This document shows, one piece after another, positions 304 through 36,280 of a DNA stretch of 64,000 nt. A model generated the notes under the pieces. That model saw only the letters and a program-made list of their open reading frames with translations, did no database searches and was not told where the DNA came from. Origin of the DNA: Salinimicrobium sediminis (lineage in GTDB: Bacteria > Bacteroidota > Bacteroidia > Flavobacteriales > Flavobacteriaceae); assembly GCF_900215295.1 (NCBI RefSeq), contig NZ_OCMF01000004.1:124001-188000 (forward strand), in the 5' to 3' direction. The position numbers and the translations under genes are program-made. Each line of letters opens with the position of its first letter. The first letter of the stretch is position 1.

Positions 304-729
304 TTACGAGATGGATCTTTCTTTTCTCTTATATTTTATAAGCAATTCAAAAGCTCTATCTGATAAATCTCTTTTGTAAAGGAGTTCAAAGTATTTCTGC
401 AAAAATTTTTTCTCTTCAAGGTAAAGCCAGTGTTGTTTGGTGCCTTTAAATTGTGAACGAGCTAACTTTTCCAACCAGAGGAAAAAAGGCATGTATTTTA
501 TTATATTCCCACAAGAGCAATGTTTATCTGCATTTTGGTTTCTTATGTTAAAGGAACATTTCTTTAACTTTAGATCCAATTCTTCTCTTTTTTCAAAAAG
601 GCTCCAAACCTTATTTATGAGATCACTTTCTTTCGCAGGAAGCAGATAATAAATTGATTTATACAAGTCCATAAGACGCTGATTACCTGCAATCAAAGTA
701 TTTAACTGATATAATAGGCCGGCTTGCAT
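304..729 (-). CDS. Hypothetical 141-aa helical protein upstream of the P-type ATPase
   Basis: I do not recognise this family. The protein is predicted to be almost wholly helical and basic, with no signal peptide and no membrane segment. It has a CSCG motif near residue 72 and an isolated cysteine about 14 residues before it; these are too few to call a metal site. It precedes the P-type ATPase by 37 bp on the same strand, so the two are likely one transcript. In architecture (small, cytoplasmic, helical, about 140 aa) it recalls the two paralogous proteins at 13630-14532, but I could not align it to them convincingly. An FNR-like site lies 117 bp upstream. Confidence 0.6.
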   Translation of the reverse strand: MQAGLLYQLNTLIAGNQRLMDLYKSIYYLLPAKESDLINKVWSLFEKREELDLKLKKCSFNIRNQNADKHCSCGNIIKYMPFFLWLEKLARSQFKGTKQHWLYLEEKKFLQKYFELLYKRDLSDRAFELLIKYKRKERSIS

Positions 730-6614: not shown

Positions 6615-7652
6615 ATGGAAAAAGTTATTCTACTTATTGAAGATGATCAGATTCTTGCAGAGAACACTAAAGAATTGCTGGAACTCTCGGGATATAATGT
6701 GATTACTTCCCCTGATGGAAAATGCGGATTTAATAAAGCTTTGACCCAAGAGCCGGATTTGATAATTTCGGATATTATGATGCCCCATTTGGACGGTTAT
6801 CAAGTCTATGAAGCTCTCCAGCAACATCAAAAAACAGCTAAAATCCCCTTTATTTTTCTTTCGGCCCGATCAAACCTGTGTGATATTCGAAAAGGGATGA
6901 ATTTGGGGGCAGACGATTATATCCCCAAACCCTTCGATGAAAGAGATCTCCTTGTCGCTGTCGAAAAAAGACTTGAAAAAAAGGAAAAACTCTGTAAAGA
7001 AAAAGAAGCAACTAAATATAGTAAACAGAATCAGCTTGAAGAGCTAAAGAAATTTTTCCGGACATATGGAGAACAACAGGAGGCAGAAAAGGATGAAGAG
7101 ATCTTTCTTGAAGGCCGGTCAGCTTCCAGTGTATATCTTTTGGAGTATGGATTGGTAAAAACCTTTGAGCTCGACGAGTGGGGAAAAGAATTAATCACCG
7201 ATGTCTGTCAAAAAGGGGATTTCATAGGCTTCTATAGCTTTAAATCCCATTCTTCTCTTCCCGAAAGTGCAACTGCACTTGAACGCAGCATTTTGTTCAG
7301 GATCTCTCATCACGATTTTGTGGATATGCTTAAGCAAAATCATGATCTTAGCCTTGAATTTGCCGAACTTCTCTCCAATCACCTTATCACTCTTAAAAAC
7401 CACCTTTTGGAAATGGCCTATGGTTCTGTTCTCAAGAAAACGGCGAGTACCCTGCTTGAATTTGTGAAAAAGACCAATGGAGGCCTCCAACCCTTACTTA
7501 AAGTCTCCCGTGGAGATATGGCCAGTGTTGCCGGAATTTCTACAGAAAGTTTTATTAGAAGTCTTTCCTCTTTAAAGGCCGAAGGAATTATTGATATAAT
7601 TGGCCGCAACATCAGGATACTCGATCTTCAAAAACTTAAGAATATTCACTAA
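6615..7652 (+). CDS. Response regulator: receiver domain fused to Crp/Fnr-type cNMP and HTH domains
   Basis: A 345-aa fusion. Residues 1-120 form a receiver domain with the acidic pair at Asp11-Asp12, phospho-acceptor Asp53, Ser83 and Lys105. Residues 145-265 are a Crp-type beta-roll with the long dimer helix, and 270-345 a Crp winged helix with the recognition helix around STESFIRSL. The Glu-x3-Arg pair (Glu311, Arg315) aligns with the residues that read the TGA half-site in E. coli FNR and CRP. No clustered cysteines for a 4Fe-4S centre are present, so it is not an FNR-type oxygen sensor. Control is probably by phosphorylation from a kinase not in this window. It sits directly before hsp20 and the usp operon, whose promoters carry TGA-N6-TCA sites. 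Confidence 0.92.
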   Translation: MEKVILLIEDDQILAENTKELLELSGYNVITSPDGKCGFNKALTQEPDLIISDIMMPHLDGYQVYEALQQHQKTAKIPFIFLSARSNLCDIRKGMNLGADDYIPKPFDERDLLVAVEKRLEKKEKLCKEKEATKYSKQNQLEELKKFFRTYGEQQEAEKDEEIFLEGRSASSVYLLEYGLVKTFELDEWGKELITDVCQKGDFIGFYSFKSHSSLPESATALERSILFRISHHDFVDMLKQNHDLSLEFAELLSNHLITLKNHLLEMAYGSVLKKTASTLLEFVKKTNGGLQPLLKVSRGDMASVAGISTESFIRSLSSLKAEGIIDIIGRNIRILDLQKLKNIH

Positions 7653-7690
7653 AAATGATATGCTAATATCTTCTTAATTATTTGACTGCC

Positions 7691-7733
7691 TGACATTTAT
7701 CATGAAGCCATAAACCTGCCTTTTTTACTTTAG
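7691..7733 (+). promoter_or_regulatory. Crp/Fnr-type operator and promoter of hsp20
   Basis: TGACATTTATCA (7691-7702) fits TGA-N6-TCA. A -7-like box TACTTTAG starts at 7726, 29.5 bp from the operator centre, which would place the operator near -41 (class-II activator position). The box departs from TAnnTTTG, as expected for an activator-dependent promoter. Confidence 0.6.
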
Positions 7734-7766
7734 TACTGCATGAATGTCTAATTTAAAAAAAAAGTT

Positions 7767-8234
7767 ATGTCACTTATCAAGTCAAACAAGCGCAGGACTC
7801 CCAGGTTGAGTAATGTCTTTAGAAATGATCCTTTTTTTTCCGACCTAATGGATCGAAAAAGTATGTTTGAAAATTTTTTTGACACTAACGGCGACTTCGA
7901 TATTAGTCCCGCAATGAACATCAAAGAGAAAGAAAAAGAATTTGAAGTTGAACTTGCAGCGCCAGGCCTCAGAAAAGAGGATTTTAATATTACCCTTGAT
8001 GAAGGGATCCTTACTGTTTCTGCCCAAAAAGAGGAAAGCAAAGATGAAGAAAAAGAAGGATTTATTACTAAGGAATTTAGTTATAACTCTTTTTCAAGAT
8101 CTATAAGTATTCCAGAAAGTATTGATGAAGAAAAAGAGGTCACCGCCAAATATGAAGATGGTGTACTTAAATTAAAACTTCACAAAAAAGAAAATATGGA
8201 GCCCAAAAAGGCACGCCGCATCAACATTTCCTGA
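7767..8234 (+). CDS. Hsp20 / alpha-crystallin small heat-shock protein
   Basis: A 155-aa small heat-shock chaperone. The alpha-crystallin domain spans about residues 45-150, with the characteristic ELAAPGLRKEDF and YEDGVLKLKL segments; the second is the conserved GVL motif near the end of the domain. The N-terminal arm is basic with a Phe-rich stretch. The short C-terminal tail ends in RINIS, which can serve as the I-x-I oligomer contact. Small Hsps hold unfolding proteins in the cytoplasm without ATP. It forms its own transcription unit: an operator-promoter in front, a strong hairpin terminator behind, and the response regulator upstream. Confidence 0.93.
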   Translation: MSLIKSNKRRTPRLSNVFRNDPFFSDLMDRKSMFENFFDTNGDFDISPAMNIKEKEKEFEVELAAPGLRKEDFNITLDEGILTVSAQKEESKDEEKEGFITKEFSYNSFSRSISIPESIDEEKEVTAKYEDGVLKLKLHKKENMEPKKARRINIS

Positions 8235-8246
8235 TCTCATAAAAAC

Positions 8247-8278
8247 AAAAGAGGGATGGGATTTCTCATCCCTCTTTT
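8247..8278 (+). terminator. Intrinsic terminator after hsp20
   Basis: AGAGGGATG (8250-8258) pairs perfectly with CATCCCTCT (8267-8275), flanked by A on the left and T on the right. It separates hsp20 from the usp operon. Confidence 0.85.
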
Positions 8279-8292
8279 ATTTATTGGCACAA

Positions 8293-8335
8293 TGACATAA
8301 ATCATTATTTAATCTACTGATTTCCCGTAACTTTA
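8293..8335 (+). promoter_or_regulatory. Crp/Fnr-type operator and promoter of the usp operon
   Basis: TGACATAAATCA (8293-8304) matches the hsp20 operator at nine of twelve bases. A -7-like box TAACTTTA begins at 8328, again 29.5 bp from the operator centre. The start codon follows 15 bp after the box, so the leader would be short. Confidence 0.6.
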
Positions 8336-8350
8336 GAAAAATCCTTCCCT

Positions 8351-9199
8351 ATGAGAAAGATAGTCGTGCCAACAGATTTTTCAGAGAACGCCTTTGATGC
8401 CCTTAAATATGCTGCCGAGTTGTTTAAATACGAAAGGAGTGAGTTCTTTCTTTTGCACGCTTATGCCGATGAAGTCTTTGAAGAGGCCGACGACCTTTCC
8501 AGGGAATTTCTTGAAGAACTAAAGAGCAGAATAAAAAGTAAAGCAGATGCAGAGTTGGAAAAAACCAAATCCCGAATTCTGGAGATCTTTCCCAATCCCA
8601 AACATGAATTTAAGACGGTTTCTGCTTTTGGACTACTTATAGATGAAGTCAACGATCTCGCAGAAAGGGAAAATGCAGATCTAATTATTACTTCCACCCG
8701 TGGAGTCTCTGATGACCGCAAACTTACCTTTGGAAGCAACTCCCTACAGATTATTAAATATGTTCAATGTCCTGTTCTCAGCATACCCGCAAGCTACAGC
8801 TTCAGAGACCTGAAAAGAGTATTATTCCCCTCCAATTTCATGTTACCTTACCAGCGCAGAGAATTAAAGTTGGTAGGGGATTTAGTGCGATCCATATGTG
8901 CAGAGATACATTTGCTCTACATTTCCAAATATCCGCAAGAAACTTTGAGACAAAAAGAACATAAAGCGGCAGTCCTGGAGCAATTTTATAACATAAAGAT
9001 TACTGAACATTTTGAAGAACTGGATGATAAAGCTGAAGTTATTAAAAAACTTATCCCCCAGTTGAACATCGACCTGTTGGTACTCGTAAACTCGCGCCAC
9101 AGTTACCTTGAGAATCTCCTATACACTTCGACTATAGATAAAATAGGATTTGACCCAAAAATTCCATTTCTGGTACTTCAAAATTTTTACCGTTTATAA
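8351..9199 (+). CDS. Universal stress protein with two Usp domains (first of three)
   Basis: A 282-aa protein made of two UspA-like domains, roughly residues 1-145 and 150-282. The N terminus has the standard PTDFSENAFDALKYA strand-helix. The first domain ends in the segment TSTRGVSDDRKLTFGSNS, a degenerate form of the G-x2-G-x9-G-(S/T) ATP-binding motif (the first Gly is replaced by Ser), so nucleotide binding may be lost here. The second domain lacks the motif. It heads the operon usp-usp-usp-nuclease-RNase. Tandem-domain Usps are linked to survival under energy or oxygen limitation in other bacteria; the specific role here is unknown. Confidence 0.88.
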   Translation: MRKIVVPTDFSENAFDALKYAAELFKYERSEFFLLHAYADEVFEEADDLSREFLEELKSRIKSKADAELEKTKSRILEIFPNPKHEFKTVSAFGLLIDEVNDLAERENADLIITSTRGVSDDRKLTFGSNSLQIIKYVQCPVLSIPASYSFRDLKRVLFPSNFMLPYQRRELKLVGDLVRSICAEIHLLYISKYPQETLRQKEHKAAVLEQFYNIKITEHFEELDDKAEVIKKLIPQLNIDLLVLVNSRHSYLENLLYTSTIDKIGFDPKIPFLVLQNFYRL

Positions 9200-9211
9200 A
9201 TTTTCAGACCG

Positions 9212-10057
9212 ATGAAAAAGATCCTGCTTCCCACCGATTTTTCTGCAAATGCACTTAATGCCATTTGTTATGCTATGGAACTTTTTGCCGGGGAAGAGTG
9301 TTTGTTTTTCCTTCTCAATACCTATACTCCTGTACTGTATGATAATGAATATTTAACTTATAGCAGCACACAACCCACATTAACAGAAATCTACAGAAAT
9401 AAATCCCAGCAGGGTCTTGAGCGGGTACGGCGAAGAATACTGCGAAAGTATAAGAATGAAAATCACCATTTTGAACTGGTTTCTTCATTTAATCTCCTTA
9501 GCGATGAATTGAAGGAAATTGTAAAGGAGAAAAAAATTGATCTTGTGGTAATGGGTACTAAAGGAGCCACCGGTGCCGAAGAAATCTTATTTGGCACTCA
9601 TACCGTTCATGCTATAAAAAAGACGCGCTGCCCTTTACTGGCAATTCCTGCTCATTTTGAATACCGGCCGCCAAAAAACATCCTGTTCCCAACAGACTAT
9701 GAGACTGAAATTCCCGGGGTACTTAAGATCATGCGCAATATTGTTGATACTCACAACTCTGCCATAAATGTGCTCCATGTGTATTCCGAACTGAATCTTA
9801 CTGAAAGTCAGGCGGGCAGGAAGAAAGCATTGGTACGAGCCTTTAAGGATAATAAACTTAACTTTTTCAGTATTACCGATAAAACCGTCACCCGCGCCAT
9901 CTATGATTTTACTGAAGAAAATGAAGTTGATATGCTCGTAATGGTCAACAACAAACATTCATTTTTTGAGAACCTTCTCTTCCGTCCGGTGGTAAATGAA
10001 ATTGGTTTTAATGTGAAAGTGCCTTTTTTGGTAATTCCGTCAAATAAGAAATCATGA
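9212..10057 (+). CDS. Universal stress protein with two Usp domains (second of three)
   Basis: A 281-aa paralogue of its neighbours, starting 12 bp after the first usp gene and overlapping the third by 4 bp (ATGA). Domain 1 keeps a GTKGATGAEEILFGTHT loop that fits G-x2-G-x9-G-(S/T), so this copy may bind ATP. Domain 2 (about 150-281) again lacks the full motif but keeps the NNKHSFFENLLF segment shared by all three paralogues near the C terminus. The shared length and arrangement show the trio arose by tandem duplication. Confidence 0.88.
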   Translation: MKKILLPTDFSANALNAICYAMELFAGEECLFFLLNTYTPVLYDNEYLTYSSTQPTLTEIYRNKSQQGLERVRRRILRKYKNENHHFELVSSFNLLSDELKEIVKEKKIDLVVMGTKGATGAEEILFGTHTVHAIKKTRCPLLAIPAHFEYRPPKNILFPTDYETEIPGVLKIMRNIVDTHNSAINVLHVYSELNLTESQAGRKKALVRAFKDNKLNFFSITDKTVTRAIYDFTEENEVDMLVMVNNKHSFFENLLFRPVVNEIGFNVKVPFLVIPSNKKS

Positions 10058-10902
10058 AAAAGATCCTTTTACCCACAGATTTCTCGCAGAATGCTTTTAA
10101 TGCGATCACCTATGCTTTGGAAATGTTTAGGGAAGATAAAATCACTTTTACCTTTTTACACGCCTATAAGGTTTTTGAATACCACGAGAAAAGTAAGCTA
10201 ACCGCAGAGCCGGGTGAAAAGAATCTGGAGAAGGTAAGGAAGGATACAGAAAAAAAACTTGAACAGCTTGCCGAAGAATTTTCCTTGAAGGCTGGCAAAA
10301 ACCACACATTTAAAACAGCTGTTCACAACCTGTTGCTTGTTGATGCCATAAATAAAGAGCTAAGAATCCATAAACAGGATCTAATTGTAATAGGCACCCA
10401 GGGAAAGACCGGTAATAAAGAAGTTGTTTACGGCAGTAATACTATTAACATCATGGAAGATGTGGAAAAGTGTCCCGTCCTTGCTATACCTGCGCATGTT
10501 TCTTTTAAACCGCCTACGGAAATTGTTTTGGCGAACAGTTTTAAGGTGGAGCTTACTCCTACAGACCTGGATTTTTTGATTGGTTTAGCACGAAAATATG
10601 GGTCTGCTATTCGAATTTTACATATCGCTGAAGAAGGCGGATTAAGCAGATCTCAAAAATACAACCGGGCTCAGCTTCAGGAAAAACTTGAAGGGGTAAG
10701 ACATTCCTTCCATTTTCTGGAATACCTCAGTGTACCAATAGGCATTTATTCATTTTTGGAAAGCAGAGGGAGTGATATGATCGCATTTATTAATAAAAAA
10801 CATACGCTCGTACAGAATCTTTTACTACAACCTTTGTATAAGAACCTTGCACATTATTCTAAGGTACCGGTACTGGTTTTACATCAACCCGAAAAATCCT
10901 AA
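10054..10902 (+). CDS. Universal stress protein with two Usp domains (third of three)
   Basis: A 282-aa double-Usp protein. The start overlaps the stop of the preceding gene by 4 bp, a sign of translational coupling. Domain 1 has GTQGKTGNKEVVYGSNT, a complete G-x2-G-x9-G-S nucleotide-binding motif, the best preserved of the three copies. Domain 2 is divergent but keeps the INKKHTLVQNLL segment matching NNKHSFFENLL in the second copy. The next gene, a nuclease with an ATP-cone, begins 9 bp later. Confidence 0.88.
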   Translation: MKKILLPTDFSQNAFNAITYALEMFREDKITFTFLHAYKVFEYHEKSKLTAEPGEKNLEKVRKDTEKKLEQLAEEFSLKAGKNHTFKTAVHNLLLVDAINKELRIHKQDLIVIGTQGKTGNKEVVYGSNTINIMEDVEKCPVLAIPAHVSFKPPTEIVLANSFKVELTPTDLDFLIGLARKYGSAIRILHIAEEGGLSRSQKYNRAQLQEKLEGVRHSFHFLEYLSVPIGIYSFLESRGSDMIAFINKKHTLVQNLLLQPLYKNLAHYSKVPVLVLHQPEKS

Positions 10903-10911
10903 AATTTTGCT

Positions 10912-11760
10912 ATGAAGATCCTTACTGCTTCGGGAGAACGACCTGATTATTCAAAAGAAAAAGTTGCAGGCTCTCTAAGAAGGTCGGGTGCAAAGGAACA
11001 CGTCATCCAGGATATCCTTAAGACTCTGGAAAAGGATCTTTATGAAGGAATGAGCACAAAACAGATCTACAAACTGGCTTACAAACTTTTAAAATCACAG
11101 GATGGACTAACAGCTTCCAGGTACAAACTTAAAAAAGCAATTTTTGAACTGGGACCTACCGGTTTTCCTTTTGAACGATTTATTGGAGCCGTTTTAGAAC
11201 ACAGCGGGTACAAGGTGGAAATTGGTAAAGTGGTACAGGGAGCCTGCGTCCCCCATGAAATAGATGTAATTGCAGTAAAGGATGAAAAGAAGTTGTTTAT
11301 TGAATGTAAATTCCATGGTGAACAGGGAAGAAATTGTAATGTGAAGATCCCCCTGTATATTCATGCCCGCTTTCAGGATATCAGGAATCACAGGTCTCAA
11401 AAAGGAGAAAATGTACAGGTCTATAACGAGGGTTGGGTTGTTACCAATACCAGGTTTACTAAAGACGCACTCCAGTACAGTCACTGCGTTGGTTTGCAGC
11501 TCTTAAGCTGGGATTACCCTAAATACCAGGGTCTTAAAGATCGCATCGATCATCTGGGTCTTTATCCTATTACTGTATCTTCTTTGTTATCAGGCAGGGA
11601 AAAACAATTCCTTTTAAGCAGAGATGTTGTTTTATGCATGGAACTTTTGGATAATCAGTTTCTTCTGGACCAACTGGAAATATCACCGGGCAGGAAAAAG
11701 AAGATTTTAAAAGAAATGGAAGAACTATGTAATTCGGGAATGGCTTATCATGAAAAATAA
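10912..11760 (+). CDS. ATP-cone domain fused to a PD-(D/E)xK (Mrr-like) nuclease domain
   Basis: A 282-aa protein. Residues 2-85 look like an ATP-cone, the nucleotide-sensing domain known from ribonucleotide reductases and NrdR. Residues 86-210 form a restriction-endonuclease-like fold: HEID with Asp118, then the strand LFIECK with Glu131 and Lys133, which is a complete D-x(n)-E-x-K catalytic set, preceded by a helix containing Glu95. The last 60 residues are helical and could bind DNA. An ATP-cone beside a nuclease suggests cutting controlled by ATP/dATP level; the target is unknown. It is the fourth gene in the usp operon and overlaps the beta-CASP RNase gene by 11 bp, so it is expressed with stress proteins and not with a methyltransferase. 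That argues against a restriction system. Confidence 0.82.
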   Translation: MKILTASGERPDYSKEKVAGSLRRSGAKEHVIQDILKTLEKDLYEGMSTKQIYKLAYKLLKSQDGLTASRYKLKKAIFELGPTGFPFERFIGAVLEHSGYKVEIGKVVQGACVPHEIDVIAVKDEKKLFIECKFHGEQGRNCNVKIPLYIHARFQDIRNHRSQKGENVQVYNEGWVVTNTRFTKDALQYSHCVGLQLLSWDYPKYQGLKDRIDHLGLYPITVSSLLSGREKQFLLSRDVVLCMELLDNQFLLDQLEISPGRKKKILKEMEELCNSGMAYHEK

Positions 11761-13123
11761 TGTGCAAATACATTTCTTAGGTGCTTCGGGAACTGTGACC
11801 GGGTCAAAATTTCTTTTGCAAGCCTTTGAAAAAAATATTCTTATAGACTGCGGAATGTTCCAGGGGCTTAAAGAGCTTCGGGAAATGAACTGGAATAAAT
11901 TTGCTTTCCCGCCTGGGAAAATCGACCTGATATTACTTACCCATGGACACCTGGACCATACCGGAGCTTTACCACGGTTAATTAAAGAAGGCTTCAAAGG
12001 TCAAATCATAGGAACCTCTCCTACTCTGTCTATCGCAGAAATTATTTTGACAGATAGCGCAAAGATCCAGCAGGAGGATGCAGAGAGAGCCAATGAAGAA
12101 CATTACTCTCATCATGAACCCGCTTTACCTTTGTATGACGAAAAAGATGTAGCACAGACAGTCTCTCTTTTTAAGACGGTAAAACCCGAAGAATGGTTTG
12201 AAGTTTCCGAGCATATAAAATACAGGTTCAGACCAAATGGACATATCCTGGGCTCCACTTATATTGAACTGGAAATAGGAAAGAAGATCTTTGTATTTTC
12301 GGGCGATATTGGTCAGGATGAAGATAGCCTGCTCAATCCCCCTCTAAAACCACAACGTGCCGATTTTCTCTTTCTGGAAAGCACCTATGGAGATCGCTTA
12401 CATCCTGATGAGGATCCCGATATCATCTTAAAAACTGCTATAGAAACGACCCTTGAACAGCAGGGAATACTTATTATACCAAGTTTTGCGGTGGAGAGAT
12501 TACAAACTCTTATGTATCGTATCTATAAACTCAGGGACAGGAATTTAATTCCCAAGATTCCGCTTTACATTGACAGTCCCATGGGTAATGAAGTGCTTAC
12601 GGTTTTTAGCAGGTTCATGTCATGGCATAAACTATCTCACGATGAGTTTAAACGGATGAAAAAATGTTTTAAAGTCATAACCCAATACAAGGATACCTGG
12701 AATACTATTGAAGATCCATCTCCTAAGGTCGTAATTGCAGGTAGTGGGATGGTTACGGGGGGACGCGTACTTACCTATCTGCGTTTTTTCATTGAAGACC
12801 CAAAAACAATAATTTTACTCACAGGTTTCCAGGCCGAAGGCACCCGGGGAAGACAACTATTAGAAGGTTTGCCTGAAGTAAAGATTTTTGGAAAATATTT
12901 ACAGGTAAAAGCGGCAGTGGAAAGCATCAACAGCCTTTCGGCTCATGCAGATCAAAACGGGCTGCTGAACTGGATCTCTGGGATTGAGAATGTGCCGGAA
13001 AGGATTTTTCTAATCCACGGTGAAAAAAAGGCAGCAGATGTACTTAGGGTAAAGATTAGGGATAGATATAACTGGAAACCTGAGATCCCTCACCTTGGGC
13101 AGGTGGTAACCGTTTCTGTTTAA
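11750..13123 (+). CDS. Metallo-beta-lactamase / beta-CASP RNase (CPSF73-like)
   Basis: A 457-aa protein with a metallo-beta-lactamase core and a beta-CASP insert. The zinc motif HGHLDH is at residues 65-70, a further metal Asp is in FSGDIG near 180-185, and the C-terminal SAHAD motif lies near residue 405. The GASGTVTGS start and the GSGMVTGGR segment are typical of CPSF-73/YSH1-like bacterial proteins. Relatives act as RNA endonucleases or 5'-3' exonucleases. As the last gene of the usp operon it overlaps the ATP-cone nuclease gene by 11 bp and is followed by a hairpin terminator. Its likely task is RNA processing or decay under stress; the substrate is not known. Confidence 0.9.
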   Translation: MKNNVQIHFLGASGTVTGSKFLLQAFEKNILIDCGMFQGLKELREMNWNKFAFPPGKIDLILLTHGHLDHTGALPRLIKEGFKGQIIGTSPTLSIAEIILTDSAKIQQEDAERANEEHYSHHEPALPLYDEKDVAQTVSLFKTVKPEEWFEVSEHIKYRFRPNGHILGSTYIELEIGKKIFVFSGDIGQDEDSLLNPPLKPQRADFLFLESTYGDRLHPDEDPDIILKTAIETTLEQQGILIIPSFAVERLQTLMYRIYKLRDRNLIPKIPLYIDSPMGNEVLTVFSRFMSWHKLSHDEFKRMKKCFKVITQYKDTWNTIEDPSPKVVIAGSGMVTGGRVLTYLRFFIEDPKTIILLTGFQAEGTRGRQLLEGLPEVKIFGKYLQVKAAVESINSLSAHADQNGLLNWISGIENVPERIFLIHGEKKAADVLRVKIRDRYNWKPEIPHLGQVVTVSV

Positions 13124-13131
13124 AACAAAAA

Positions 13132-13154
13132 GATCCGTGATAAGCTCACGGATC
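13132..13154. terminator. Terminator between the usp operon and a small lipoprotein gene
   Basis: GATCCGTGA (13132-13140) and TCACGGATC (13146-13154) form a perfect 9-bp stem with a 5-nt loop. The A-rich left flank supplies a T run for the convergent minus-strand lipoprotein gene; the plus-strand side has only a short TT. Confidence 0.75.
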
Positions 13155-13195
13155 CTTCCAAGGCACTTATGTGCCGGGTTCTTCGAAAGAATAAA

Positions 13196-13417
13196 TTATT
13201 CTACAGAAGTAGTATCTGTAATGTCTTCTACTACGGTACCGCCGGTGCTTGTAGTATCAACAACTTCTTCAACTTCAACTTCCTCAACTTCTGGAGTCTC
13301 TGGAGTTTCGATAACTTCTACTGCACTTTCTTCAGTGGTTTCAGTAGTAGTTTCTTTACAAGAAGTAAAACTAAATACTAATGCGATAACAGCAAAAGTC
13401 AAAAAGGATTTTTTCAT
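13196..13417 (-). CDS. Small acidic lipoprotein, 73 aa
   Basis: The start chosen is the ATG at 13417, which gives a typical lipoprotein signal (MKKSFLTFAVIALVFS, then TSC with Cys20). A longer reading from 13486 would bury the signal peptide 23 residues in and would begin upstream of the promoter box at 13448, so I reject it. The mature part is about 53 residues, made almost only of Glu, Thr, Val and Ser, with repeated EVEEVE and TTE patterns and no recognisable fold. It is probably an unstructured surface or periplasmic lipoprotein. Function unknown. Confidence 0.7.
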   Translation of the reverse strand: MKKSFLTFAVIALVFSFTSCKETTTETTEESAVEVIETPETPEVEEVEVEEVVDTTSTGGTVVEDITDTTSVE

Positions 13418-13447
13418 TTTAAATGAATTATTAATTGTTTGAGGCGC

Positions 13448-13455
13448 CAAATGTA
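13448..13455 (-). promoter_or_regulatory. -7 promoter box of the acidic lipoprotein gene
   Basis: TACATTTG on the minus strand is an exact TAnnTTTG match, 31 bp before the chosen ATG at 13417. It lies inside the longer alternative reading frame and so supports the shorter start. Confidence 0.55.
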
Positions 13456-13567
13456 TATCATTTTTAGACTCATAATACATATTCAAAAATTATTTTTAGT
13501 TAAATTTTTAAGACCACAAAACTTCCTTAAAAAATACCCTTTTTGAGCCTGCTAAATTTTAAATTCT

Positions 13568-13609
13568 TGACATTTGTCATCTTATTAAAATATTTATTTT
13601 TTACCTTAA
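13568..13609 (+). promoter_or_regulatory. Crp/Fnr-type operator and promoter of the helical protein pair
   Basis: TGACATTTGTCA (13568-13579) has perfect 5-bp arms TGACA/TGTCA and fits TGA-N6-TCA. A -7-like box TACCTTAA begins at 13602, 28.5 bp from the operator centre, within 1 bp of the spacing at hsp20 and the usp operon. Confidence 0.6.
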
Positions 13610-13629
13610 TAACTTAAACGTAAGGATTT

Positions 13630-14061
13630 ATGAACCGGAATACTTCCAGAAGTTTCTCGGCAAACGAGAAAGAGATAGAGAGATTGCTTCAGGAAAACAG
13701 GAGCTGGAAAGAGGAGTTGTCCTATATTTCTGAGGAGATCAATTTCCTCATCCTTTTCCTTACGGCAGATATATTCAGAAAAAACGTTTTGAACCTGTAT
13801 GAAAAGCTTCAACTATTTTACAATGATCTACAGGAGATCAAAAAAGAAAACATAGAATTGATAAGAGAAGTACATAATCACAGGTACGATATTGAAGGTA
13901 TTCTGGAATGTGAAGACATTAGCTGTGAAGTGTTTTATCACGAGGAACATATAAAATTGGGTCAAAGAATACAAGACTTTGCCGATAATTTCAAGGTTCT
14001 TAAAATGGACATCTATCTCTATACTGGCAGTAATCTTAGAAAGACCAGTAAAGAGACCTAA
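13630..14061 (+). CDS. Helical protein of unknown function, paralogue of the next gene (143 aa)
   Basis: A cytoplasmic, mainly helical protein of 143 residues without signal peptide. It shares a pattern with the next gene: WK-x-EL near residue 27, an I-x2-E-x2-F stretch, a V-x2-H segment in the middle, an EH-x2-L motif around residue 108 and F-K-x-LK-x-DIY near 127. The spacing of these matches the second protein closely, so the two are tandem duplicates of a coiled-coil family that I cannot name. It is preceded by the third TGACAT-type operator and therefore likely belongs to the stress regulon. No catalytic residues are evident. Confidence 0.7.
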   Translation: MNRNTSRSFSANEKEIERLLQENRSWKEELSYISEEINFLILFLTADIFRKNVLNLYEKLQLFYNDLQEIKKENIELIREVHNHRYDIEGILECEDISCEVFYHEEHIKLGQRIQDFADNFKVLKMDIYLYTGSNLRKTSKET

Positions 14062-14082
14062 TAAAACATAATTTTTTTCATC

Positions 14083-14532
14083 ATGGAAAATAAGGCTCAC
14101 CATTACCGGTACATTGAGTGGAAATCACCCGATGAAATGCATTTCTCCTCGCTGCAGTGGAAATCTGAACTCAACTTTATTAAGGATGAACACAGGTTCT
14201 TTGAGGATATGCTCAAAGAATATACTATGCCTATTATAGAATCTCAGCTGTTTACGGTGGTTAGAGAACTTATTCAGCAACTGGACCATTCCCGGAAAGA
14301 TCTGGTACTCCTGGAGCAAAAGGTTAATGACCATAGCAACAGGTTACAAAAATTACTGGAAGATATTGACACTCCCCGTGAAGGCAGGATCTATAGAGAT
14401 GAACATAAAATTCTCCTTAACGAAGTAATCCATTTTTCAAGGCAATATAAGCGCCTGAAAAAGGATATTTTTGAAGCTGTAACCAAGGCATTAAAACAAC
14501 AAAGACAAAAAAGACTTTTACCTAAAGAATAA
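14083..14532 (+). CDS. Helical protein of unknown function, paralogue of the previous gene (149 aa)
   Basis: This 149-aa helical protein begins 21 bp after its paralogue and is clearly in the same transcript, which ends at the hairpin at 14563. Shared landmarks are WKSELNFI, a VNDH segment, YRDEHKIL and YKRLKKDIF, in the same order and at similar distances as in the first copy. It carries a longer N-terminal extension with several His residues and a basic C-terminal tail (KQQRQKR). I predict a helical bundle, possibly a hetero-oligomer with its neighbour. Function is not known. Confidence 0.7.
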   Translation: MENKAHHYRYIEWKSPDEMHFSSLQWKSELNFIKDEHRFFEDMLKEYTMPIIESQLFTVVRELIQQLDHSRKDLVLLEQKVNDHSNRLQKLLEDIDTPREGRIYRDEHKILLNEVIHFSRQYKRLKKDIFEAVTKALKQQRQKRLLPKE

Positions 14533-34751: not shown

Positions 34752-36280
34752 TGTTTGGGGTTGGTTTGTTCGGTTTCAAAAAGGTCAAAAATGGCGGCTC
34801 CTGTTTTTTTGGCAATATCTCCTGCAAGAGTGCTCTCGTAGCTTAGCTCTGCAGCCGCGAGGTCTCCTGCTTTACCATGTAAATAGACACCCAGGACAGC
34901 TGCCTGTAAAGGTTCATATCCCTGCCCTATTAATGCAGTTATTACTCCTGTAAGCACATCTCCACTACCTGCTGTAGCCATGCCCGGATTCCCGGAGGTA
35001 TTGATGAAAATATTTTCAGAAGTTACCGTAAAGGTATAGGCTCCTTTTAGCACCAGAATGATCTTGTACTTAGTAGTGAAATCCTTAATCTTTTCAAGTT
35101 TGTCGAAATCATCTTTCCACTTTCCTATAAGCCGTTCCAGCTCCTTTGGATGAGGGGTAAGCACAGAACCTTCTGGCAAAAGCTTCAGGAACTCAACATT
35201 TTTGGAAAGTATATTTAAACCATCGGCATCAATGACCATAGGTATTTTATATTGTTTTAGAAGCCCCTCGAACGCGGTAACCGTTTCTTCTTTAGTACCC
35301 ACTCCTATTCCGAAGCCAATTACTTCGGGATCAAGGTCAAAGTCGATACTGCTCAAGATTTCGAGATGAGGATCTGTGAGCACCATGGCTTCCGGCACCA
35401 GGGTTTGAAGGATGTCATAACCACATTTTGGAGCATAAATGCTTACCAGCCCTGCACCGGCTCTTAAAGCTGCAAGTGCAGTAAGACTCACGCTTCCTAT
35501 TTTTCCATAGCTTCCTCCAATTATCAGGGCATGACCATAGGTCCCTTTATGGGAGAATTTATTGCGGGGCCTGTATAAGGCTTTGGCTTCAGGCTTTGAG
35601 ATCAACTGAGCCGAGCCGGGAGTATTCTGAAGGAATTCGCGATCAAGAGCAATGTCAATGACCTGCAGTTCACCCACAAATGGCGCAGTCTCGGGCATAT
35701 AAAATGCCATTTTTGGTACCTGAAAAGTTATAGTGAAATTGGCTCTAATTATACTCTCCTTATCCTCAACTGCAGCATCGGCCATAAGTCCCGAGGGCAT
35801 ATCTACGGCCAGTACAAAGGCTTTGGAATTATTGATATGCTTTACCAGGTTTGCCACCCATTCCACAAGAGGGCGGTTCAACCCTACTCCAAAAATGGCA
35901 TCTACAACAAAATCTCCATAGCTTATTTCGGGAAAATCGGCTTCAGATTTTAGCAGCACCGGCCATTTTTTGGTCATATTTTTAACGCGGTCATAATTCA
36001 CCAGGAATTCCTGTGAGCGTTGATCGCTGTAATTCACCACATATATGGTAACGTCATAACCTGAATCAATGAGCAGCCGGCCAATGACCAACCCGTCACC
36101 TCCGTTATTACCTATTCCGCAGAAAATCTTGATTGGGATCTGTACCCCCTGTAATCGCCTGTGGATTTCATTAAAAACCATGGTAGCAGCTCTTTCCATA
36201 AGATCTACAGAAGAGATCTCCTGCTTTTCAAGAGTAAGCCTGTCGGCTTCTTTAATTTGACTTGCACTGAGGATCTTCAT
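34748..36280 (-). CDS. nnr: Bifunctional NAD(P)H-hydrate repair enzyme (epimerase and dehydratase)
   Basis: A 510-aa fusion of two repair domains. The N-terminal YjeF_N part (about 1-215) epimerises damaged NAD(P)HX and has GNNGGDGL (about 57-64). The C-terminal part (about 225-505) is the ADP-dependent (S)-NAD(P)H-hydrate dehydratase, with the GYGHALIIGGSYGKIG nucleotide region and GSGDVLTG near the end. This domain order is common in bacteria. The gene leads a two-gene unit: hutH starts at its stop with a 4-bp overlap. A perfect -7 box sits 25 bp before the ATG. Confidence 0.94.
   Translation of the reverse strand: MKILSASQIKEADRLTLEKQEISSVDLMERAATMVFNEIHRRLQGVQIPIKIFCGIGNNGGDGLVIGRLLIDSGYDVTIYVVNYSDQRSQEFLVNYDRVKNMTKKWPVLLKSEADFPEISYGDFVVDAIFGVGLNRPLVEWVANLVKHINNSKAFVLAVDMPSGLMADAAVEDKESIIRANFTITFQVPKMAFYMPETAPFVGELQVIDIALDREFLQNTPGSAQLISKPEAKALYRPRNKFSHKGTYGHALIIGGSYGKIGSVSLTALAALRAGAGLVSIYAPKCGYDILQTLVPEAMVLTDPHLEILSSIDFDLDPEVIGFGIGVGTKEETVTAFEGLLKQYKIPMVIDADGLNILSKNVEFLKLLPEGSVLTPHPKELERLIGKWKDDFDKLEKIKDFTTKYKIILVLKGAYTFTVTSENIFINTSGNPGMATAGSGDVLTGVITALIGQGYEPLQAAVLGVYLHGKAGDLAAAELSYESTLAGDIAKKTGAAIFDLFETEQTNPKQ

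Follow-up and report, generated by a model that had tools for sequence, protein, structure and literature searches.

The window analysed here is a 64,000-nt stretch of contig NZ_OCMF01000004.1 of Salinimicrobium sediminis, and all coordinates are positions within it. At 6615–7652, on the forward strand, it encodes a receiver-Crp/Fnr regulator, paralogue A, identified from Pfam matches, receiver and HTH residues, and a tree. The protein consists of a receiver (residues 5–116; PF00072, 1.7e-26), a cNMP-binding fold (155–242; PF00027, 1.7e-14), and a Crp HTH (275–343; PF13545, 7.1e-14), the last two matches assigning it to the Crp/Fnr superfamily. The receiver phospho-site residues D53 and K105 were present in 33/33 homologues. 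The E-x3-R recognition helix was equally invariant (33/33), and its residues are Glu311 and Arg315, as the preliminary description of this DNA had stated.

The genes that follow are all on the forward strand. Pfam matches identified an Hsp20 small heat-shock protein (7767–8234), the universal stress proteins 1 (8351–9199), 2 (9212–10057), and 3 (10054–10902), an Mrr-type nuclease protein whose N-terminus resembles an ATP-cone (10912–11760; the ATP-cone match is under the cut-off), and a metallo-beta-lactamase/beta-CASP/RMMBL nuclease-like protein (11750–13123). Helical protein 1 (13630–14061) and helical protein 2 (14083–14532), which share 23–24% identity, belong to no family in Pfam or NCBIfam. 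Protein 2 is predicted to form a three-helix bundle; the three-helix model (pLDDT 82, four input sequences) gave no PDB match at E ≤ 0.001.

We located TGACAT-N3-TCA sites upstream of hsp20 (box 1, TGACATTTATCA, 7691–7702), the usp operon (box 2, TGACATAAATCA, 8293–8304), and the helical pair (box 3, TGACATTTGTCA, 13568–13579), all on the forward strand. Their positions outside ORFs, and the 28–29 bp between each site centre and a promoter box, agreed with the preliminary description. The promoter box reads TAnnTT and lies 23, 23, and 22 bp past the respective site (TACTTTAG, 7726–7733; TAACTTTA, 8328–8335; TACCTTAA, 13602–13609; forward strand). Provided that TAnnTT corresponds to the −7 element, the sites would lie near −41. 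The window contains a fourth exact match, within a gene (35406–35417), and a further box on the reverse strand (TGATATTAATCA, 845–856), with TAAATT 23 bp downstream, followed by the gene for a 141-aa protein (304–729, reverse strand). As targets, hsp20, the usp-nuclease operon, and the helical pair were retained in most same-genus stretches. Among the same-genus promoters read, the box was strict at 5/7 for hsp20 (the remaining two differ by one change), at 7/9 for usp1 (one change in one, absent in one), and at 7/8 for the helical pair (absent in one).

The bare pattern occurred 15 times forward and 17 times reverse in the 3.48-Mb genome, close to the chance rate of once per 260 kb per orientation estimated previously; read backwards, it gave 20 matches (10 + 10). 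When one mismatch was permitted, the window showed no enrichment (14 matches vs 16.1 in shuffles). We read 30 of the 32 genomic matches, of which 15 were inside ORFs of at least 100 aa and 15 outside; TAnnTT followed at 22–24 bp in 6/15 of the latter vs 1/15 of the former. A spacing of 23 bp was found at five sites among these 30 loci, with every other spacing from 0 to 79 bp represented at most twice; the signal therefore resides in the motif and the spacing together. The refined box is TGAY-N4-RTCAT, then 23 bp, then TAnnTT. In regulator neighbourhoods, 84/296 sites had the 23-bp spacing, as did 36/186 in a second set of 20 loci fetched by protein alone, and other spacings accounted for 0–11 sites; within this 20-locus set, the 12 loci in other families contributed just 8/38 sites with a spacing of 22–24 bp. 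The refined box with its spacing is not due to chance. In one Saprospiraceae relative (L032), neither of two TGAY-N4-RTCA sites had TAnnTT at 22–24 bp.

The genome was scanned with a profile, R1, trained on 74 promoters, none of them from this genome. It detected 22 places at E ≤ 0.05, three of them in the window. Boxes 2, 1, and 3 were recovered at ranks 2, 13, and 40, their E values being 4.7e-4, 0.0125, and, for box 3 with its spacing of 22, 0.45; the box at 845–856 ranked ninth. Among the best 30 matches, 29 lay outside ORFs of at least 100 aa, which occupy 89% of the 198 kb sampled around matches. Boxes were found upstream of a 2-oxoacid oxidoreductase gene (E 0.0098) and, opposite it, a divergent YfhL ferredoxin gene (E 0.70), as well as hemN (E 0.034), ccoS-ccoNO (E 0.050), NADH dehydrogenase chain 3 (E 0.24), and five usp-type genes (E up to 0.19). 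We infer from this gene set, which fits FNR/FixK targets, an oxygen-limitation regulon.

The regulator had previously been proposed as a phosphorylation-controlled activator of hsp20, the usp-nuclease operon, and the helical pair. Comparison supported this proposal as regards the domains, the intact phospho-site, the placement of the sites, and the conserved targets, but it proved too narrow: the identical box also precedes respiratory and anaerobic genes genome-wide, and a second receiver-Crp paralogue, accompanied by a FixL-like kinase, has just as strong a claim to the sites. This paralogue, B, is encoded elsewhere in the genome beside a PAS kinase gene. Paralogue A is an orphan with no adjacent kinase gene and forms a separate clade in the tree. 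Support for a single origin of the receiver-FNR proteins was 99/74, in a group that contains a long-branched short Crp protein. On sequence grounds, A, B, or both could act at the window boxes, and other Crp proteins appear less likely.

A protein search of genome contigs found just two full-length relatives of the regulator among six loci, and whole-genome searches were therefore used. Full-length relatives occurred in 56/395 genomes of a phylum sample, representing 39/171 genera (E ≤ 1e-45). NCBIfam gave 102 matches for A and 106 for B, and none of the 25 listed for each reached the cut-off. At two loci (L190 and L193), the usp/ATP-cone/MBL/hsp20/helical set adjoins kinase-regulator pairs. 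In the B kinase of S. sediminis, alignment to FixL chains located both of the residues that we take to be the proximal heme His and the distal Arg of FixL. The His was present in 17/21 kinases of the first set and in 19/19 of the second, in which a kinase gene adjoins the regulator at 19/20 loci.

The four cysteine positions of FNR were each occupied by Cys in 28/28 stand-alone FNRs read and in 0/11 A proteins; among B and other receiver proteins (n = 22), two retain one of the four. A four-cysteine FNR was found in 20/25 other genomes of the family and was not found in 12 genomes of the genus itself, two of them incomplete. Profile matches per genome had a median of 15 where a receiver-FNR was the only such regulator (13 genomes) and of 0 where neither type was present (15 genomes); these counts are partly circular, many training promoters adjoining regulators in the counted genomes, a circularity that spares the S. 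sediminis genome and the FNR-only genomes. The box occurs too in genomes with a four-cysteine FNR alone, and by itself is therefore no pointer to a receiver-FNR.

The domains, the box with its spacing and conservation, the distribution of the regulators, the absence of the cysteines, and the kinase residues can all be read directly from the sequences. We consider it probable that they are best explained by a genome-wide oxygen-limitation regulon, including this island, that is read by receiver-fused FNR proteins with input from a heme kinase. Both A and B have an FNR-like DNA-binding half, and in both the receiver stands where FNR has its cysteine region. The PAS kinase adjacent to B would sense oxygen through heme and phosphorylate B, and perhaps orphan A too. 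Class II CRP/FNR activators bind a site centred near −41 and activate from the adjacent promoter box; in the same manner, the phosphorylated dimer would bind TGAY-N4-RTCAT centred near −41 and activate transcription from TAnnTT 23 bp downstream. The broader proposition, for which we see an even chance, is that FNR was rebuilt as a one-piece two-component regulator in this genus and a sizeable minority of Bacteroidota, the Fe-S sensor giving way to a receiver that takes its input from a FixL-like heme kinase, with the box, spacing, and targets retained.

The mild enrichment of the bare pattern (32 vs 20) and the one-mismatch result in the window would suit three alike sites that share an island by chance, without regulatory meaning. 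The spacing peaks reject such an origin of the box, the peak in the 20 protein-picked loci opposing it for boxes of this kind in general; conservation among relatives and the held-out profile matches also argue against chance, which we regard as extremely improbable. A different regulator could be involved, since six Crp-type proteins in this genome, A and B included, exceed the cut-off. If the boxes were bound mainly by another of these, A would be a mere neighbour. The short Crp protein (C8:1415809-1416402) is an example: it carries the E-x3-R helix, has two boxes within 3 kb, one of them upstream of hemN, and is found in 11/12 genomes of the genus. However, three genomes that have it and lack a receiver-FNR or clear FNR gave 2, 3, and 1 profile matches, a small sample, and outside the genus the box tracks the receiver-FNR or four-cysteine FNR and not the short protein (60 genomes followed). 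Receiver-FNR genes, moreover, repeatedly adjoin box-bearing usp genes directly, in several genera, and the assignment to another Crp/Fnr protein appears quite unlikely.

The paralogues might instead serve two regulons with separate kinases and signals, A reading TGAC-type island sites in general stress and B reading TGAT-type sites in response to oxygen. Within the genus, island sites are mostly TGAC and B-linked usp sites mostly TGAT, and A has no kinase nearby and a clade of its own; yet orthologous island promoters can carry either type (TGAT was seen in three genomes for usp1 and in one for hel1), and A and B share the E and R of the recognition helix and have a similar receiver helix 1, making this division unlikely in our view. 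Somewhat less doubtful is that the B kinase has no heme at all, or that its signal is not oxygen but, for example, nitric oxide or the redox state. PAS domains are versatile in function, the distal Arg is missing from 6/19 second-set kinases, the L090 kinase has no FixL His, and two related systems have LOV-type PAS domains. Against this, the solved relatives of the S. sediminis PAS domain (E ≤ 1e-4) are, after another kinase chain (10jx), FixL chains, DosP, and similar entries, and the targets are respiratory and anaerobic.

To our knowledge, oxygen regulation in Bacteroidota is poorly charted, and among the literature matches listed (titles and abstract starts; few subscription journals covered) none dealt with a receiver-Crp regulator from this phylum. 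A CRP/FNR meta-regulon study treats Flavobacteriales and Saprospiraceae homologues as MalR-like, and the word 'receiver' is absent from its main text (PMC8510549). The combination of a receiver-FNR and a precisely placed box looks widespread in the flavobacterium group. If the receiver-FNR reading is right, the box and its fixed 23-bp spacing would allow the low-oxygen regulon of a flavobacterium to be listed from sequence.

The site centre near −41 resembles class II CRP sites, but the promoter box here is TAnnTT. DosS-DosR of mycobacteria comprises a heme kinase and a response regulator with usp-rich targets and an Hsp20, and the present system shares these features, with the heme kinase predicted. 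DosR has a LuxR-type HTH as its output, whereas the regulator here has HTH_Crp_2. Stand-alone FNRs share the box, the spacing, and a related CNB-HTH, along with ccoS-like and usp-like targets that we identified by eye; unlike them, A has lost all four cysteine positions and has a receiver, and its input would be phosphorylation. In Alphaproteobacteria, the cco, hemN, and nuo genes are among those under the control of FnrN/FixK (PMC4999443). The same paper describes FixK as an FNR relative without an Fe-S cluster, and the Caulobacterales, inferred to have lost FnrN and to use FixLJ-FixK instead, represent a comparable swap (PMC4999443). The likeness extends to the FixL-like PAS kinase; the difference is that FixJ and FixK are two proteins in series, FixJ turning on fixK (PMC4999443). 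Here, a single chain combines the receiver with the Crp domains and could perform both steps. If true, the sensor was swapped while the regulon was kept, in a parallel to FixL-FixJ-FixK, yet a simpler one.

The three TGACAT-N3-TCA sites proposed in the preliminary description, at 7691-7702 (hsp20), 8293-8304 (usp1, of the usp operon), and 13568-13579 (hel1, of the helical pair), were exact and lay outside ORFs, and the promoter box described after each site was found as TAnnTT, 23, 23, and 22 bp downstream, respectively. The nine-base pattern also recurs exactly at a fourth place in the window, within a gene. The whole S. sediminis genome (3.48 Mb, 8 contigs, with the window on contig C4) contained 32 copies, versus 20 for the reversed control, and a one-mismatch search of the window gave 14 matches, versus 16.1 from shuffles. 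We read 30 of the 32 genomic matches for ORF context and TAnnTT spacing. Half of them (15/30) fell in ORFs of 100 aa or longer, and TAnnTT stood at 22-24 bp in only one of these 15, compared with six of the 15 not in such ORFs, including the three window sites. A spacing of 23 bp occurred in 5/30 matches, while every other spacing from 0 to 79 occurred at most twice. The genomic counts, the one-mismatch null, and the excess at 23 bp indicated a weak signal from the nine-base pattern itself and a strong one from its spacing.

Conservation was assessed in 10 stretches from same-genus genomes. The strict box was present in 5/7 hsp20 promoters (one change in 2/7), 7/9 usp1 promoters (one change in 1/9, absent in 1/9), and 7/8 helical-pair promoters (absent in 1/8). 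The helical gene of G007 was not called, yet its site was present, and at the threshold used the G004 stretch yielded none of the hsp20, usp1, or helical genes. The regulator in the window, A, is 84% identical to its counterpart in Salinimicrobium nanhaiense, the closest named relative found. A short, low-complexity lipoprotein-like gene on the minus strand (13196-13486), between the nuclease operon and the third box, was called in 6/10 of the same-genus stretches at 79-98% identity and matched no family in a Pfam search.

The spacing was analyzed in the window and 31 stretches around receiver-Crp genes (30 from relatives, one from the same genome; 663 kb in total), excluding one overlapping stretch, L086. 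TGAY-N4-RTCA occurred at 296 sites on both strands, 84 of which had TAnnTT at exactly 23 bp; other spacings from 0 to 60 accounted for 0 to 11 sites each, and five scrambled controls gave no spacing peak. Among 83 distinct sites with spacings of 22-24 in stretches from other genomes, outside ORFs longer than 450 bases, 74 had a spacing of 23. The base following TCA was T in 69/74 of these promoters, versus an A at the mirrored position in only 33/74, and thus the box is asymmetric, towards the promoter. A palindromic box between divergent genes of the S. sediminis genome (C6:188968-188979, equal to L146:5969-5980) has TAnnTT 23 bp away on both sides. In a second set of 20 loci from other genera and families, picked by protein alone, 36/186 sites had a spacing of 23, and other spacings 0 to 10. 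As 30 of the 38 sites at 22-24 came from eight same-family (Flavobacteriaceae) loci, versus eight from 12 other-family loci, the box is well demonstrated within the family only.

A sequence-only profile built from the 74 promoters found 58 places in the S. sediminis genome at E<=10 and 22 at E<=0.05, these E-values being rough owing to a shortened calibration, and 29 of the 30 best places lay outside ORFs of 100 aa or longer. The 22 places include three window sites; the usp1, hsp20, and helical-pair sites ranked 2, 13, and 40, and an additional window site (845-856) ranked 9. Among targets with families over curated cut-offs, those whose box matched the profile at E<=0.05 were oxygen-independent HemN, 2-oxoacid:acceptor oxidoreductase, formate-THF ligase, an Rrf2 regulator, a phosphoribosyltransferase, an HlyD-type protein, and three usp-type genes; those at E 0.05 to 0.7 were CcoS (followed by a CcoN/CcoO fusion), YfhL ferredoxin (encoded divergently to the 2-oxoacid:acceptor oxidoreductase), NADH dehydrogenase chain 3, a multicopper oxidase, a POR-type enzyme, and two more usp genes. 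Zinc alcohol dehydrogenase-like (E<=0.05), MoeA-like, and molybdopterin oxidoreductase-like proteins (both E 0.05 to 0.7) fell below the full-protein cut-off, and citrate synthase (E<=0.05) was identified by eye. A few matches were off-theme, near a TonB-like gene, a lipoprotein, and unknowns. Our guess is that the hsp20, usp, nuclease-like, and helical proteins might support the survival of non-growing cells at low oxygen, the function served by the mycobacterial Dos regulon.

We sorted 60 genomes on regulator content and counted profile matches at E<=0.05. The medians were 15 with receiver-FNR (A/B-type proteins) only (13 genomes), 19.5 with both receiver-FNR and stand-alone FNR, the four-cysteine oxygen regulator (six genomes), 7 with FNR only (23 genomes; range 0 to 20), 2 in three unclear genomes, and 0 with neither (15 genomes). 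The difference between receiver-FNR only and neither (Mann-Whitney p = 7e-6) is weakened by shared ancestry, smaller genomes in the latter group, and training overlap, some profile promoters having come from genomes counted in the 60. G001, a genus genome, had 3 matches.

The box is also present in genomes without receiver-Crp, where at two loci (L137, L139) it precedes usp-like and ccoS-like genes, as judged by eye, and it precedes fnr itself in three genomes with both regulators (L165, L166, L169). Four positions were Cys in all 28 stand-alone FNR sequences read (30 loci, two without a usable ORF). The four cysteines were lost in 11/11 A proteins, and 2/22 of B and the other receiver proteins keep one. 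An FNR search (E<=1e-20) of 12 genus genomes, two of them (G001 and G008) only ~75% complete, gave no match above 37% identity and none extending to the N-terminal cysteines. Clear FNR was found in 20 of 25 other family genomes, with a partial match in G030, which was classed as unclear and does carry the four Cys.

The second receiver-Crp protein of the genome, B (C8:566422-567465), is 44% identical to A; its gene follows that of a PAS kinase and precedes a usp-type gene with a box at spacing 23. The kinase PAS matches FixL chains, and in the alignment both the heme His and the distal Arg of FixL are present. The heme His was conserved in 17/21 first-set kinases, the exceptions being L090 (without His), L092 and L093 (LOV-type PAS), and L104 (interrupted); second-set kinases had the heme His in 19/19 and the distal Arg in 13/19. 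The phosphorylated Asp and the Lys were intact in 33/33 regulators, with one acidic position replaced by N in 4/33. At L104 (near 11025-12100, G009), the B kinase gene of this relative is broken within its PAS-coding portion, through either a pseudogene or a sequencing error. The LOV-type PAS kinases (NCRFLQ) adjoin receiver-Crp regulators at L093:13946-15976 (G021) and L092:2657-5935 (G012), and copies of this box abound in the L093 stretch; a related regulon in these systems may take blue light as its input.

A and genus B each formed a clean group in the tree (100/99 and 100/100, respectively), and all receiver proteins clustered with the short Crp protein, which has a long branch, at a support of 99/74 that leaves this fork open. 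The receiver-Crp fusion probably had one origin. Full-length B relatives were found in 56/395 phylum genomes and 39/171 genera.

The closest parallel to the proposed mechanism is FixLJ-FixK, in which FixK, an FNR relative, no longer has the cluster and is controlled by a heme kinase (PMC4999443). The same paper infers that FnrN disappeared from Caulobacterales, which rely on FixLJ-FixK. The difference lies in the fusion of the receiver to the FNR-like half, which would reduce the pathway to one step: the fused receiver-FNR would do at once what FixLJ-FixK does as a cascade.
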